A DNA stretch of 64,000 bases, from the NCBI GenBank assembly GCA_017527415.1, contig JAFXQA010000022.1, positions 79,091-143,090 on the forward strand, in the 5' to 3' direction. This DNA is from Bacteroidales bacterium (lineage in GTDB: Bacteria > Bacteroidota > Bacteroidia > Bacteroidales > UBA932). Each line of letters opens with the position of its first letter. Position 1 is the stretch's first letter. A program made the position numbers and the translations under genes. The notes below the pieces were generated by a model. It made no database searches. It was not told the origin of the DNA and was given only the letters and a program-made list of their open reading frames with translations. Of this stretch, positions 9,273 to 45,170 are shown in pieces.

Positions 9273-9501
9273 GGTCGGCTGAGGCCGACTCCGTCGCTTC
9301 GCTCCGAAATCTGCGTTTTACGCAAGTGCTTAATTATTAATGCTTTACTAAAACAGGTCGGCTGATTTTAACGACCTGTTTCAGCAAATGGCTCACTATC
9401 AACCATTTAGCTATTACGCCCGCCCTTCGAGGGCCGCGTTACCACGGCCGTCCATCCAGGTTGCGCCTATACCAAAGATGCCGGCTTTTCCGGGGATTCT
9501 A
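9273..9501. other. Gene-free spacer with hairpins before the AraC-type gene
   Basis: I see no gene here. The spacer holds GTCGGC/GCCGAC (9275-9290 region), the ACAGGTCG hairpin listed separately, and a GCCC-TTCGA-GGGC hairpin near 9422-9434. The rest is unremarkable. Confidence 0.5.
9316..9400. repeat. Dispersed ACAGGTCG hairpin, copy 1 of 4
   Basis: The arms CTAAAACAGGTCG (9348-9360) and CGACCTGTTTCAG (9372-9384) pair with one mismatch. The A-rich and T-rich outer ends make it look like a bidirectional terminator. The left flank (GCAAGTGCTTAATT) resembles that of the copy at 44560-44640. Confidence 0.75.
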
Positions 9502-9532
9502 TTTGTTTTCTTGCCAATTTGATTTATTTTTG
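9502..9532 (+). promoter_or_regulatory. Promoter of the AraC-type regulator, probably leaderless
   Basis: TTTG at 9502-9505 and TATTTTTG at 9525-9532 have the 19-base spacing. Only four bases separate the -7 box from ATG 9537, so transcription would begin at or next to the start codon. Confidence 0.7.
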
Positions 9533-9536
9533 TAAC

Positions 9537-10493
9537 ATGGTATCAGAAACACAATCGGTTAATGCCACTGCTGTCAGCCCTGCAGACAGCTCAATGTGGA
9601 TTGCTACTTCGGCCCGCGGGCTTGTCCGGGTTGGGAAAAACGGCAAGGCATTCAATTATTCGGTCGAAAAGGGAGACCTTGCGTGCAACAATGTTGTTGC
9701 TTTATCCTTTGATAATGAGGGGGTTCTATGGGTAAAAGACGCCGAAGGCACCGTTTTTTCCTACACTTCTTTCTCTGGATTTGTAAAGCAGTCCGAAGTG
9801 CCTCAATCCATCGCCGAGGCTTTTGCCGAGCCTGTTTTGGCTGAAGAACAGGAGGTGGCTCCCCAGCCGGAACCTGCGTCCCGCCCATGGTATGGGTCCT
9901 GGCCCATGCTTCTGATAACAATTGTGTTGTCTGCCCATCTGATATGGCGGGTTTTCAAGCGTTTTTCGGCAGAAAAACCTGTTGCTGATGCCGCCTCGGC
10001 CCCGTCTCCTGTTTTGGAACCTGTTGTTTCAAAACCGAAACCTGCAGAACCGCAGCCGGAAGGGGAAACCCTTCCTGGAGCATTTTCCCGGAACGGGTTG
10101 CGGAGCAACGCGGAAGGAAAGGTTTCCCCTTCCGGCGCTAAGTCCTCAGCTCCGAAACCCGTAATAACGGCACCCGGAACAGGCACATTCTACGACAGGG
10201 TTTACGCAATTGTCAAAGACAACTACACCAATTCAGTTTTCGGTGTCGAAGATGTCGCAAACGCCCTTGGCATGAGCCGCGTGCACCTTAACCGCAAGCT
10301 CAAGGCAGAAAACAGTCCATCCCCATCTGATTTGATAAAAAAGATGAGGATGGATCTTGCTGTGGAAATGCTGAAGGAGGGGAGCGCCAGCATCAGCGAA
10401 ATCGCTGCGAAGTGCGGTTTCTCCTCCGCTTCCTATTTTTCCAGCGCTTTCAAAGAGTACTTTGGAGTAGCTCCGGCAGCGTACGGGAAATAG
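9537..10493 (+). CDS. Short membrane-anchored AraC-type regulator with two propeller-like blades
   Basis: ATG 9537 is chosen because it directly follows a good promoter. The 318 residues hold, in order: a region with two repeats resembling two-component-regulator propeller blades (SSMWIATSARGLVRVGKNGK and NNVVALSFDNEGVLWVKD), a membrane helix at about 121-141 (WPMLLITIVLSAHLIWRVF), a disordered Pro-rich linker and a C-terminal AraC DNA-binding domain (VEDVANALGMSRVHLNRKLK, then ISEIAAKCGFSSASYFSSAF). This is the outline of a Bacteroidetes hybrid two-component system without histidine kinase, receiver and nearly all of the propeller. It may be a one-component membrane regulator or a decay product; the intact frame favours the former. 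No signal peptide is evident. A palindromic element is inserted in frame at residues 173-200. It converges on the phosphodiesterase gene with no spacing. Confidence 0.75.
   Translation: MVSETQSVNATAVSPADSSMWIATSARGLVRVGKNGKAFNYSVEKGDLACNNVVALSFDNEGVLWVKDAEGTVFSYTSFSGFVKQSEVPQSIAEAFAEPVLAEEQEVAPQPEPASRPWYGSWPMLLITIVLSAHLIWRVFKRFSAEKPVADAASAPSPVLEPVVSKPKPAEPQPEGETLPGAFSRNGLRSNAEGKVSPSGAKSSAPKPVITAPGTGTFYDRVYAIVKDNYTNSVFGVEDVANALGMSRVHLNRKLKAENSPSPSDLIKKMRMDLAVEMLKEGSASISEIAAKCGFSSASYFSSAFKEYFGVAPAAYGK
10055..10136. repeat. Palindromic element copy 1, in frame inside the AraC-type gene
   Basis: Perfect 16-base arms (GCCGGAAGGGGAAACC at 10055-10070 and its complement at 10121-10136) enclose a 50-base centre. 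Bases 10079-10117 are identical to 17736-17774. The centre holds two triloop hairpins, CCCG-GAA-CGGG and GTTGC-GGA-GCAAC, so the element can fold as a multi-branched cruciform. Confidence 0.9.
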
Positions 10494-15744: not shown

Positions 15745-16148
15745 ACAAATTCGACGACAAGTACATAAGGATGGCCAAGATATGGGCCACGAACTCATAC
15801 TGCAAGCGCCGTCAGGTCGGCGCCCTGCTGGTGAAGGACAAGATGATAATCTCGGATGGCTATAATGGCACCCCCTCCGGTTTTGAAAACGAATGCGAAG
15901 ATGGAGATGTTACAAAACCTTATGTGCTTCACGCCGAGGCGAATGCCATTACCAAGGTTGCAAAATCCGGAAATTCATCGGCAGGAGCCACCCTTTACGT
16001 TACCGCTTCTCCATGCATCGAGTGCTCCAAACTGATCATCCAGTCCGGCATCTCCCGTGTGGTTTACAGTGAAGAATACCGTCTGGACGACGGCATCAAG
16101 CTGCTTCGCCGTGCCGGAATCGAGGTAGAAAAAATAGACGTGGAATGA
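15741..16148 (+). CDS. dCMP deaminase family protein
   Basis: The 135 residues carry the zinc-dependent cytidine/deoxycytidylate deaminase signature: HAEANAITKVAKSG (His ligand and catalytic Glu) and ASPCIECSKLIIQSG (the two Cys ligands). The opening WATNSYCKRRQVGALLVKD is typical of ComEB-type dCMP deaminases, which make dUMP for thymidylate synthesis. The start overlaps the acyl-CoA synthetase stop (ATGA), and the stop overlaps the ctpA start (ATGA), so it sits inside a tightly coupled operon with functionally unrelated genes. Confidence 0.9.
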   Translation: MNKFDDKYIRMAKIWATNSYCKRRQVGALLVKDKMIISDGYNGTPSGFENECEDGDVTKPYVLHAEANAITKVAKSGNSSAGATLYVTASPCIECSKLIIQSGISRVVYSEEYRLDDGIKLLRRAGIEVEKIDVE

Positions 16149-17737
16149 GACAGTATTCATCAGTCCTGATAGCCTTGCTGGGAGTGCTCGTCGGCGCCCT
16201 TGCCGTCCTGACCTTTCAGAAAGCCCAGGAGAACAAACACCTGATGCGCACCGAACTCCGGGACTGGCGTAAGCTTAATCTCGTGCTTCAGTCGCTGGAC
16301 GAGCATTATGTGGATACGGTGGACCGCAAGGCCGTCACCGATGCTGCCATTACTGCGGCGTTGGGTGCGCTTGATCCCCATTCCGTATATATGCCTCCGG
16401 CAGTCCTCGAGGAATCTGAAACCGAACTGGCCGGGAATTTCGACGGTATAGGCATACAGTTCAACGTGCCCAACGACACGGCGATAGTCCTGGAAGTAAT
16501 CCCCGGCGGCCCGTCTGAAAAGATTGGTTTGCAGCCCGGAGACCGCATTCTCAAGGTGGACGAAAAGAATATAGCAGGAGTCAAGTTCCCCCAGGACAGC
16601 ATGGTCCGCAAGATGCGCGGTCCGTCCGGGTCGAAAGTAACCATCACCGTGCTGCGCGACGGCGAAACCGTTCCTTTCGAGATTACCCGCGGCAAGATCC
16701 CCATGAATAGCCTCGATGCCGCATTCATGGTTAACGACACGACAGGATACCTCCGTTTGAGCAAGTTCGCCAGGACGACCTACGAAGAAGTGCTGCATGC
16801 AAGTGACAGACTTCTTGACCAGGGAATGAAACGCATGATCTTTGACCTCCGAGACAATGGCGGCGGCTTTTTCGACCAGTCTTTCCTTCTTGCGGACATG
16901 TTCCTGCCTAAAGGCGCCGGCGTGGTTTATCTGGAAGGGCGTGCACAGCCCCGCCAGGATTTCAAGGCCACCGGAAGGGGCAAACTCCAGGATGTGGAAC
17001 TGGTGGTGCTGATCAATGAGAATTCGGCATCTTCCAGCGAAATATTCGCAGGAGCGATCCAGGATAATGACCGTGGTACTATAGTCGGCCGCCGTTCATT
17101 CGGCAAGGGCCTGGTGCAGGAGCCCCTTTATTTCAACGACGGCAGCGGTCTTCGGATCACAGTTGCGCGCTACCACACTCCTTCCGGCCGTTGCATACAG
17201 AAACCCTATTCCAGCGGTGAGGATTATGCATATGACCTGTACTACCGCTACCGCGACGGCGAAATGCTGAGCGCAGACAGTGTCAAGGTAGACAAAAGCG
17301 AGGAATATCACACGGTAGGCGGTCGTACGGTCTACGGTGGCGGCGGAATCGTGCCGGACGTGTTCGTTCCGATAGATACTACCCGCGCATCCGACTTCTA
17401 CCTTGCCTGCAACAGGAAGGCTACCGCCATGCGCTTCGCTTCGTCCTATTTCGATTCGCACAAAGCAGAGTTGCAGAAGATAGATGATTTCGGGAAATTG
17501 GAGCGTTATCTCGATGGCGCGGGCCTCGAGAGAAGTTTTCTCGCTTTTGCGGCGTCAAGGGACGGGTTGCGTCCGAAATCAGCCGCTGAATGGGCATCGG
17601 AAAAGGATTATATGATGACTGCCGTGCGTGCGCTGGTAGGCCGTTACTCAAAACTTGGCGACAGCGCTTTCTATCATTTATATTTGGCAATAGATAACGT
17701 ATATCAGGTGGCTGCAGGAGATATGCCCTCCCTGTAG
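16145..17737 (+). CDS. CtpA-type carboxy-terminal processing protease (S41)
   Basis: The 530 residues begin with a signal anchor (SVLIALLGVLVGALAVLTF). An S41 N-terminal helical region follows, then a PDZ domain (VIPGGPSEKIGLQPGDRIL) and the protease core with the catalytic Ser in NENSASSSEIFAGAI and the Lys in RRSFGKGLVQ. Family members degrade or trim envelope proteins in the periplasm. The C-terminal extension after about residue 400 is common in Bacteroidetes homologues. The last residues (AAGDMPSL) are encoded by the left arm of a palindromic element, and the TAG stop lies in the element's centre, so the native C-terminus may have been altered. Confidence 0.9.
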   Translation: MRQYSSVLIALLGVLVGALAVLTFQKAQENKHLMRTELRDWRKLNLVLQSLDEHYVDTVDRKAVTDAAITAALGALDPHSVYMPPAVLEESETELAGNFDGIGIQFNVPNDTAIVLEVIPGGPSEKIGLQPGDRILKVDEKNIAGVKFPQDSMVRKMRGPSGSKVTITVLRDGETVPFEITRGKIPMNSLDAAFMVNDTTGYLRLSKFARTTYEEVLHASDRLLDQGMKRMIFDLRDNGGGFFDQSFLLADMFLPKGAGVVYLEGRAQPRQDFKATGRGKLQDVELVVLINENSASSSEIFAGAIQDNDRGTIVGRRSFGKGLVQEPLYFNDGSGLRITVARYHTPSGRCIQKPYSSGEDYAYDLYYRYRDGEMLSADSVKVDKSEEYHTVGGRTVYGGGGIVPDVFVPIDTTRASDFYLACNRKATAMRFASSYFDSHKAELQKIDDFGKLERYLDGAGLERSFLAFAASRDGLRPKSAAEWASEKDYMMTAVRALVGRYSKLGDSAFYHLYLAIDNVYQVAAGDMPSL

Positions 17738-17794
17738 CATTTTCCCGGAACGGGTTGCGGAGCAACGCGGAAGGGAGGGCATATCTCCCGCAGC
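17711..17794. repeat. Palindromic element copy 2, spanning the ctpA stop codon
   Basis: Twenty-two-base arms (17711-17732 and 17773-17794) match at 21 positions and enclose a 40-base centre. Bases 17736-17774 are identical to 10079-10117 of copy 1, but the arms differ in sequence from those of copy 1. The left arm codes for the end of CtpA; the centre gives its stop. Confidence 0.92.
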
Positions 17795-21108: not shown

Positions 21109-21195
21109 GTATTTGCTAAGTCGATGATATTCAATCAATTGCTAAAACAGGTCGGCAGATTTGGACGAGCTGTTTTAGCAAAATGCTGATAATCA
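21109..21195. repeat. Dispersed ACAGGTCG hairpin, copy 2 of 4
   Basis: TTGCTAAAACAGGTCG (21139-21154) pairs with 21166-21181 at 15 of 16 positions. The left flank GTATTTGCTAAGTYG is shared with the copy near 63570-63642. Confidence 0.8.
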
Positions 21196-21239
21196 AGTAA
21201 TTGCGTATAACGCTGCTACAAATGTTAAAGCAGCGCATT

Positions 21240-44559: not shown

Positions 44560-44640
44560 GTTTTTTGCAAGTCTTTAATTGTCAGTCATTTACACAAACA
44601 GGTCGCTTATTTTTAAGCACCTGTTTGTGTAAATACTTAT
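44560..44640. repeat. Dispersed ACAGGTCG hairpin, copy 3 of 4
   Basis: ATTTACACAAACAGGT (44588-44603) pairs perfectly with 44619-44634. The left flank GCAAGTCTTTAATT resembles copy 1. It lies between the divergently placed folP promoter and the end of the ECF-S-like gene. Confidence 0.82.
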
Positions 44641-45170
44641 GAATCAGCAGTTTGCCGGAAACGGTCACTACGCCAAAAAAGGACGAAGCCGGCGGAAATC
44701 AGCACAGCCACCACCAGCTGGACCCAAAGGGCGGTGGAAACCAGTTCCATCTGCATCAGGCCGGCGCCAAGCACCAGAGCTTTCAGCCCATAGTAAAAGG
44801 CCTTGCTCAGCAGGATGGATGCGAATGCGGCGATGCCGACTCCGAATCTGCGACCGGAGAACATCCTCTCCAGCCAGACGAAGAGCAGAACGTTCACGCT
44901 AAGCTCCGCGGCAATCACAAGGCATTTCGGGAACACCGGATGCCCGGAAATGGCGAACGACACCAGCGGCAGGGCCACGCCAAGTACCAGTCCGTTGACC
45001 CGGCTGCGGCTGGCAATAAGCGCTCCAAGCACTGCCAGGCGCATGGGATCCAGCAGATAGAACGGCACGGCGGTCATGTGCGACAAAGCCGGAACCACAA
45101 GTACGAACAATAAAGCGACGGCATCGGTCAACCCGATGCCGATCGCTCTTTTACTTGCAACAACTGCCAT
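44637..45170 (-). CDS. Six-helix membrane protein, ECF transporter S-component-like
   Basis: ATG 45170 overlaps the rubrerythrin stop by one base and gives 177 residues with about six membrane helices. The segment GALIASRSRVNGLVLGVALP then LVSFAISGHPVFPKCLVIAA resembles S-components of energy-coupling-factor transporters, which bind a vitamin and share an ATPase module encoded elsewhere. Substrate unknown. It is coupled to rubrerythrin. No ECF ATPase gene lies nearby. The call rests on the hydrophobic pattern and one motif, so confidence is moderate. Confidence 0.6.
   Translation of the reverse strand: MAVVASKRAIGIGLTDAVALLFVLVVPALSHMTAVPFYLLDPMRLAVLGALIASRSRVNGLVLGVALPLVSFAISGHPVFPKCLVIAAELSVNVLLFVWLERMFSGRRFGVGIAAFASILLSKAFYYGLKALVLGAGLMQMELVSTALWVQLVVAVLISAGFVLFWRSDRFRQTADS

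Follow-up and report, generated by a model that had tools for sequence, protein, structure and literature searches.

A multicopy palindromic element with a common core and private arms lies in frame within genes of a Bacteroidales genus

A palindromic element that lies in frame in an AraC-type regulator gene belongs to a real and unusual multicopy hairpin family that is widespread within its genus. We consider it likely that this is a genus-specific, dispersing hairpin of about 80 nucleotides (nt) that is tolerated in frame within genes, and that template switching repairs its arms and inverts its core; a putative enzyme recognizing the core may spread its copies. Below, we describe the two copies from which the analysis started, the family across the genus, and the patterns of change that bear on how it is maintained.

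Results

Two copies share a core and differ in their arms. The 64,000-nt stretch of DNA analysed here (the window) contains two copies of the element, with the following features:

10055..10136, + strand: element copy 1, in frame in an AraC-type regulator gene; encodes about PEGETLPGAFSRNGLRSNAEGKVSPSG
10055..10076, + strand: left arm of copy 1, 22 nt, private sequence
10077..10114, + strand: core of copy 1, 38 nt, common to the family
10087..10097, + strand: small hairpin H1 within the core, CCC GGAAC GGG
10098..10108, + strand: small hairpin H2 within the core, TTGC GGA GCAA (TCGC/GCGA in other copies)
10115..10136, + strand: right arm of copy 1, the inverted left arm with 1 mismatch in 22
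9519..10493, + strand: host gene of copy 1, an AraC-type regulator, with the element in a low-complexity linker ahead of the helix-turn-helix (HTH)
17711..17794, + strand: element copy 2, at the 3' end of a peptidase-like gene
17734..17771, + strand: core of copy 2, in which a G-to-T difference gives TAG (17735-17737) and stops the upstream frame
16145..17737, + strand: gene terminating within copy 2

The gene that ends within copy 2 presumably encodes a CtpA peptidase. The palindromes measure 82 nt (copy 1) and 84 nt (copy 2), and their cores are the same except at the second base; the 39-nt identity between 10079-10117 and 17736-17774 given in the initial annotation is exact. That annotation had also placed perfectly paired 16-nt arms at 10055-10070 and 10121-10136. 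The pairing there is indeed perfect, and the full arms are longer, at 22 nt with one mismatch. Copy 2 has arms of 23 nt, also with one mismatch, that are quite unlike those of copy 1; arms are private to each copy, and what the family shares is the core only. The 31-nt centre of the core occurs twice in the window (at most 3 mismatches allowed), versus no occurrence in 100 shuffles. Predicted RNA folding of both strands is far stronger than that of shuffles (z of -5.8 to -9.4), as does DNA folding of copy 1 (z of -6.0 and -6.6), and a search of the window with Rfam gave the element no match at the gathering threshold.

The AraC frame, which had been described as open through the element, runs uninterrupted across copy 1 to an intact HTH_AraC domain at the end of the gene. 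The annotation had suggested a comparison with orthologues, and the inserted motif is absent from all nine aligned same-genus homologues (38-67% identical, some partial). Because the linkers of these homologues are too variable, no exact empty site can be defined in them.

The family is widespread within the genus. Further copies in the same genome, for which the annotation had suggested a search, are numerous. Neither of the outcomes that it had named as refuting, a lack of further copies and orthologues with the same residues but no palindromic DNA, came about. An initial search by pattern recovered four copies from the genome to which the window belongs (the source genome), and with a shorter pattern copies were detected in 7 of 300 genomes of the genus, the source genome included. 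A covariance model built from 28 copies gave 16 matches in the source genome, which is 67% complete; copy 1, itself part of the building set, was recovered genome-wide by model R1 with an E value of 2.7e-23. We count these as 15 distinct copies, since two of them, L138 and L140, lie where contigs C7 and C24 end, overlap by 60 nt or more and probably represent a single copy. The other 11 carriers chosen for study have 6-32 model matches each, by the same fuller scoring of candidates that gave the 16. The model matched at least 109 of 400 same-genus genomes, and in an order-wide sample of 393 genomes from 206 genera the source genome was the only one with a match; both surveys applied strict filters and scored no more than 10 or 11 candidates per genome, so these counts are lower bounds.

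Exact-pattern searches of sequence records returned 47 stretches, 41 of them titled Bacteroidales or Bacteroidia. Some titles name reticulum samples, and we take the RUG record names to denote rumen assemblies. The genus is possibly the one that GTDB calls Cryptobacteroides. The other six (from Pseudomonas, Azotobacter and one Proteobacteria metagenome-assembled genome) had no palindromic arms by eye and were set aside as unrelated. Two exact patterns found no match in viral contigs, and a blastn search with one copy found none in phages and plasmids. Many of the sequences used here are metagenome-assembled genomes, in which palindromes might be mis-assembled. The catalogue for the comparisons below comprises 128 copies with distinct surroundings, after leaving out duplicates, copies less than 45 nt from the end of a locus, and copies outside two core patterns; arm and core comparisons were restricted to 37-letter matches. 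The annotation knew of no such family in Bacteroidales, and among the open-access titles and opening lines of abstracts listed, which are weak evidence, none describes one.

Several other repeats were observed in these genomes. A second palindromic family (L249, L250 and L067) has a different 39-nt core (GGAAGTTTTTTGAG...GGCGGTAGCGGA) and private arms, and lies in frame in the same ileS loop in L249 (genome G170) and L250 (source genome). A third, larger GC-rich element (L323 and L051) has loop parts common between loci and perfect arms of 20-23 nt, and in L323 it is in frame in a SpoU methylase gene. Long-core variants (L175, L244 and L299) carry roughly 36 extra nt in the core that could form more hairpins, and L345 holds a tandem pair of elements, one of them degraded. 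The loops that receive the element in RsgA, IleS and one other protein can also hold different in-frame repeat peptides, of the CHSERSEES, IPxQAGND and SRLDRESP types (L204, L214, L227, L235, L246 and L308).

The two arms of a copy change together. Aligned arms are about 20-24 nt long in most copies. Among the 28 aligned copies, double changes occur in all 26 arm pair columns, with 213 such cells versus 70 in shuffles. At the inner 16 positions of 118 arm pairs, 1764 of 1888 pairs are Watson-Crick, 48 are G-T and 76 are other. An RNA-level or mutational effect is possible, because G-T mispairs outnumber A-C mispairs in the arms (48 versus 27); G-U makes up 2.6% of paired cells. Within genomes, no two catalogued copies share an arm, and the nearest arms differ at 2-12 of 18 positions. 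The arms nevertheless have a weak family consensus, with a mean of 8.5 of 18 differences within genomes versus 13.2 when shuffled.

Orthologous copies give a second view of arm matching. Across 87 pairs at 35 sites, which share genomes and are non-independent, the arms show 368 matched double changes versus 150 single changes. Between close orthologues, some arms are almost unchanged, while others carry 8-12 matched changes next to an identical core. The initial annotation had credited selection or the insertion mechanism with keeping the structure; the structure is kept, and arm matching is better explained by DNA-level copying than by selection on RNA.

Both small hairpins, H1 and H2, can form in all 41 distinct cores, with 287 of 287 cells paired, although the collecting pattern fixed 6 of the 14 core-hairpin positions and so partly forced this pairing, mispairs being allowed at the four varying pairs. 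Both-side changes are found at three of the seven core pairs, in 22 cells, 20 of which come from one pair. Folding of the minus strand as DNA gives a long stem plus both small hairpins. When single-stranded, the element is predicted to adopt a T shape, in which the arm stem is capped by the two small hairpins of the core.

The core occurs in both orientations and tends to follow the genome. For orthologous comparisons, copies were assigned to the same site when both flanks (24-330 nt out) were matched by blastn, not by base-exact position. By this definition, the core stands in both orientations relative to its flanks at 14 of 35 shared sites; 31 of 87 pairs are inverted, and no pair conflicts. 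In nine inverted pairs from six sites, the arms differ at no more than 4 of 40 positions. The frame was still kept in 27 of the 31 inverted pairs, at 12 of the 14 sites, by gapped alignment (the ungapped version of the test passed 12 of 31), and the four pairs that failed come from the other two sites. A gene would survive either orientation, because most cores lack stops in all six frames and inversion leaves the length unchanged. The peptide read from one core orientation is mostly GAFARTGLRSNAE-like, and that from the other SALLRNPVRANAP-like.

The core variant appears to depend on the genome more strongly than on the site. When two genomes have different majority cores, their orthologous copies differ by 2.15 letters on average, versus 1.05 letters between a copy and the majority of its own genome (39 pairs). 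Catalogued cores are identical in 11 of 11 copies in genome G019 and in 13 of 15 in G270. At eight sites common to G270 and one of G140, G019 or G309, G270 has CCCGGACAG and its partner has CCCGT; at one of these eight sites and at one further site, partners G183 or G382 have CCCGGATAG. Genome G179 is not homogeneous, with two core types in 7 and 3 of its 11 copies. A core that tracks the genome would need parallel change, conversion among copies, or re-insertion. A bolder reading holds that a dedicated enzyme maintains an invertible coding hairpin, which switches housekeeping proteins between GAFARTGLRSNAE and SALLRNPVRANAP peptide types within living populations while cores stay alike genome-wide; we regard this as unlikely.

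Candidate enzymes and a possible site-specific system. Y1_Tnp-like genes are found in 296 of the 400 genus genomes. Many of the listed hits (L350-L379) are frames of 300-340 amino acids with weak scores, and are RAYT-like. If the same 400 genomes are assumed for both counts, such genes occur in 96 of 109 carriers versus 200 of 291 noncarriers (Fisher P = 6e-5, a value that ignores phylogeny and completeness). The core is absent within about 1 kb of 20 of 20 Y1/RAYT-like loci from carriers, and on this account a RAYT/Y1 transposase was set aside as a demonstrated partner of the element, although it may still be one. Stray pieces were present at 5 of the 20 RAYT-like loci, an 11-nt piece in L376 and the 8-nt GAGCATTT in four. 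No Y1 hit was obtained in 13 carriers, one of which, G165, has 19 model matches.

An inverted-repeat scan of five RAYT-like loci found AT-rich palindromes unlike the element at two of them. The window itself has an AT-rich palindromic repeat in three copies (9324-9419, 21118-21213 and 44569-44664; 64-71% alike), which resembles in style the palindromes beside two RAYT-like genes.

These observations bear on a site-specific system, in which a nuclease, a recombinase or an HUH (Rep/TnpA-like) enzyme would recognize the core hairpins, move and flip the core, and convert cores to one sequence while the arms are rebuilt at each event. Such a system is possible, and we hold it only tentatively. It is consistent with cores that are nearly identical within genomes while arms differ, with the retention of H1/H2 pairing in all distinct cores (read with the caveat of the collecting pattern), with the excess of Y1_Tnp-like genes in carriers, and with the L338/L343 pair, in which the arms were replaced (11 matched changes, at 93.8% flank identity) and the core is unchanged. 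The lack of a nearby core at all 20 carrier loci and the 13 carriers without Y1 argue against it.

Under the reading that we prefer, template switching would account for the arms and the orientation of the core, and an enzyme for dispersal. The stem would let the nascent strand switch template during replication; the switch would copy one arm onto the other and invert the core. A putative trans-acting enzyme would recognize the core, spread the element and keep cores alike within a genome.

Empty alleles and the origin of the arms. At ileS, G179 is filled and G288 and G183 are empty, and the 57-nt difference between the alleles amounts to the core together with the neighbouring 19 nt copied in inverted orientation. 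The dnaX site is similar, as the 17-nt sequence of one arm stands alone in three relatives. Both cases suggest that insertion delivers the core and duplicates the flanking host sequence as an inverted repeat, so that the arms would derive from the target. This explanation seemed decisive in ileS and dnaX, but was weakened because the empty alleles of ileS, dnaX and an A2M-like gene are all palindromic themselves, as slippage deletions would be. For that reason, we read these alleles as probable deletion remnants and not unused sites. Moreover, the arms of the G179 copy in a SpoU methylase gene are absent from three aligned relatives, and the weak arm consensus across the family does not fit arms taken from each target. 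Target-derived arms seem improbable to us, and copying between the two arms of an existing element remains the preferred reading.

The filled/empty pairs show neither a target-site duplication nor a clean de novo insertion, and the empty alleles may be deletions. A search for a parent element with a gene between the core halves, made with one half of the core in 12 genomes, gave 89 places versus 0 in a reversed-pattern control, and no gene-sized insert was found in the 25 loci inspected. Among the ordinary copies, these loci included one long core and three letter variants; for the remaining places, coordinates compared by eye were the only basis for assigning them to known copies.

The element appears to be read as part of its host protein. 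In 80 of 87 orthologous copy pairs, a single open frame encodes homologous protein before and after the element, and by our reading most of the seven failing pairs lie near gene ends or are intergenic. We relied on the homologous frame because open reading frame length alone barely discriminates: an open reading frame of at least 150 amino acids surrounds 125 of 128 copies versus 92% of stretches taken at random from the loci that hold them, which is no evidence by itself. None of the six frames of the core contains a stop in 98 of 128 copies, versus 10% of shuffles of one core.

A Pfam scan of 20 host open reading frames, from whose families we assigned the presumed gene names, placed the insert between matched domains in aroB, ileS, a tyrA-like gene (prephenate dehydrogenase) and polA; within a matched domain in fmt, radA, murE and a SpoU methylase gene (MRM3-like domain); and beyond the matched domains in dnaX, infB, rsmA, a U32 peptidase gene and a glycosyltransferase gene. 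Another host gene is presumably rsgA. In an AlphaFold model of RsgA (24 sequences, mean pLDDT of 75), the insert falls in a low-confidence loop, with residues 67-78 under 50, flanked by strands at 51-56 and 83-88; residues 227-240 are likewise low in confidence. Judged from these alignments and domain matches, the element appears to be read as an extra protein segment, often in loops or linkers. In the source genome, rsgA (L205) has a core-less palindrome (GGCTGCAGGGT...ACCCTGCAGCC) where relatives have the element, perhaps a remnant.

The range of hosts also bears on whether the element is a structured RNA motif, such as a regulatory hairpin of mRNA, that was kept by selection and later dispersed. 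Strong RNA folding, covariation and the excess of G-T over A-C would all suit such a motif; however, both core orientations occur at one site, the coding hosts are unrelated, G-U pairs are few and the window search found no Rfam match, and we judge this explanation very unlikely. Least credible of all is that the element is skipped rather than translated, as PMC6649704 mentions for bypass elements in Magnusiomyces mitochondria: it is a GC-rich hairpin within conserved genes, but a skipped element needs neither a length divisible by three nor open frames, so the conservation of frame in 80 of 87 pairs counts against it.

Discussion

Palindromes in coding frame have been known chiefly from Rickettsiales that live inside cells; the family described here is large and belongs to a gut genus of Bacteroidales. 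Each of 12 chosen genomes has 6-32 model matches and there are many related species, which makes spread, arm repair and inversion measurable by comparison. If template switching is the mechanism, the family preserves a natural archive of it within protein-coding DNA, and it illustrates how new protein segments can arise and be rewritten in blocks. The question that it poses is what copies the core.

The initial annotation had been reminded of Rickettsia palindromic elements (RPE), for which, to our knowledge, no transposase is known. That likeness holds for a multicopy palindromic element in frame within genes, and the interpretation as an RPE-like in-frame multicopy palindrome is supported. 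RPE are described as palindromes of 105-146 bp fused in frame within Rickettsia genes (PMC2229807), and with their Wolbachia counterparts they share with this family multiple copies in frame in conserved protein genes (PMC2229807, PMC6649704). The element here is shorter, at about 82 nt, some long-core variants aside. Repeat identity of RPE is described as declining over time (PMC6649704), whereas here matched double changes exceed single ones. A conserved core, private self-matching arms, core inversion, a core that follows the genome, and residence in a Bacteroidales genus also set the present family apart. The resemblance to RPE is one of features and need not reflect kinship with the Rickettsia elements.

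The dynamics have a closer parallel elsewhere. In yeast genes, template switching is described as homogenizing arms and inverting spacers, with ten spacer inversions of 2-5 substituted bases (PMC8604942), and loop inversions in rRNA have been attributed to the same process (PMC8794818). Both patterns expected of template switching, arm homogenization and spacer inversion, are present in our sequence comparisons; in contrast to the short inversions of yeast, they involve dispersed 38-nt cores found in both orientations at many sites. Nematomorpha mitochondria likewise keep perfect inverted repeats within coding genes, but these reach 284 bp, and no common core is reported for them (PMC6649704).

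REP/REPIN sequences, with their RAYT partners, resemble the element in being dispersed hairpins; REPs inside genes are on record (PMC3733652), and RAYT-like genes are common in the genus studied here. Unlike them, the element has no constant GTAG/CGTC end tag or any constant tetranucleotide, its arm ends are private, and its core is absent from the 20 RAYT-like loci. It differs from MITEs in having no constant terminal inverted repeats, in that no two catalogued copies of a genome share an arm, and in that a limited search found no parent transposon. The terminal repeats of parvoviruses form a T-shaped hairpin with two small inner hairpins and occur in flip and flop orientations. The likeness to the predicted shape and two orientations of the element is an analogy only, and the element differs in that it is chromosomal, bacterial and part of a coding frame. 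We do not assign it to RPE, REP or MITE; on the evidence of its sequence, the element would work like an RPE with the dynamics of template switching.
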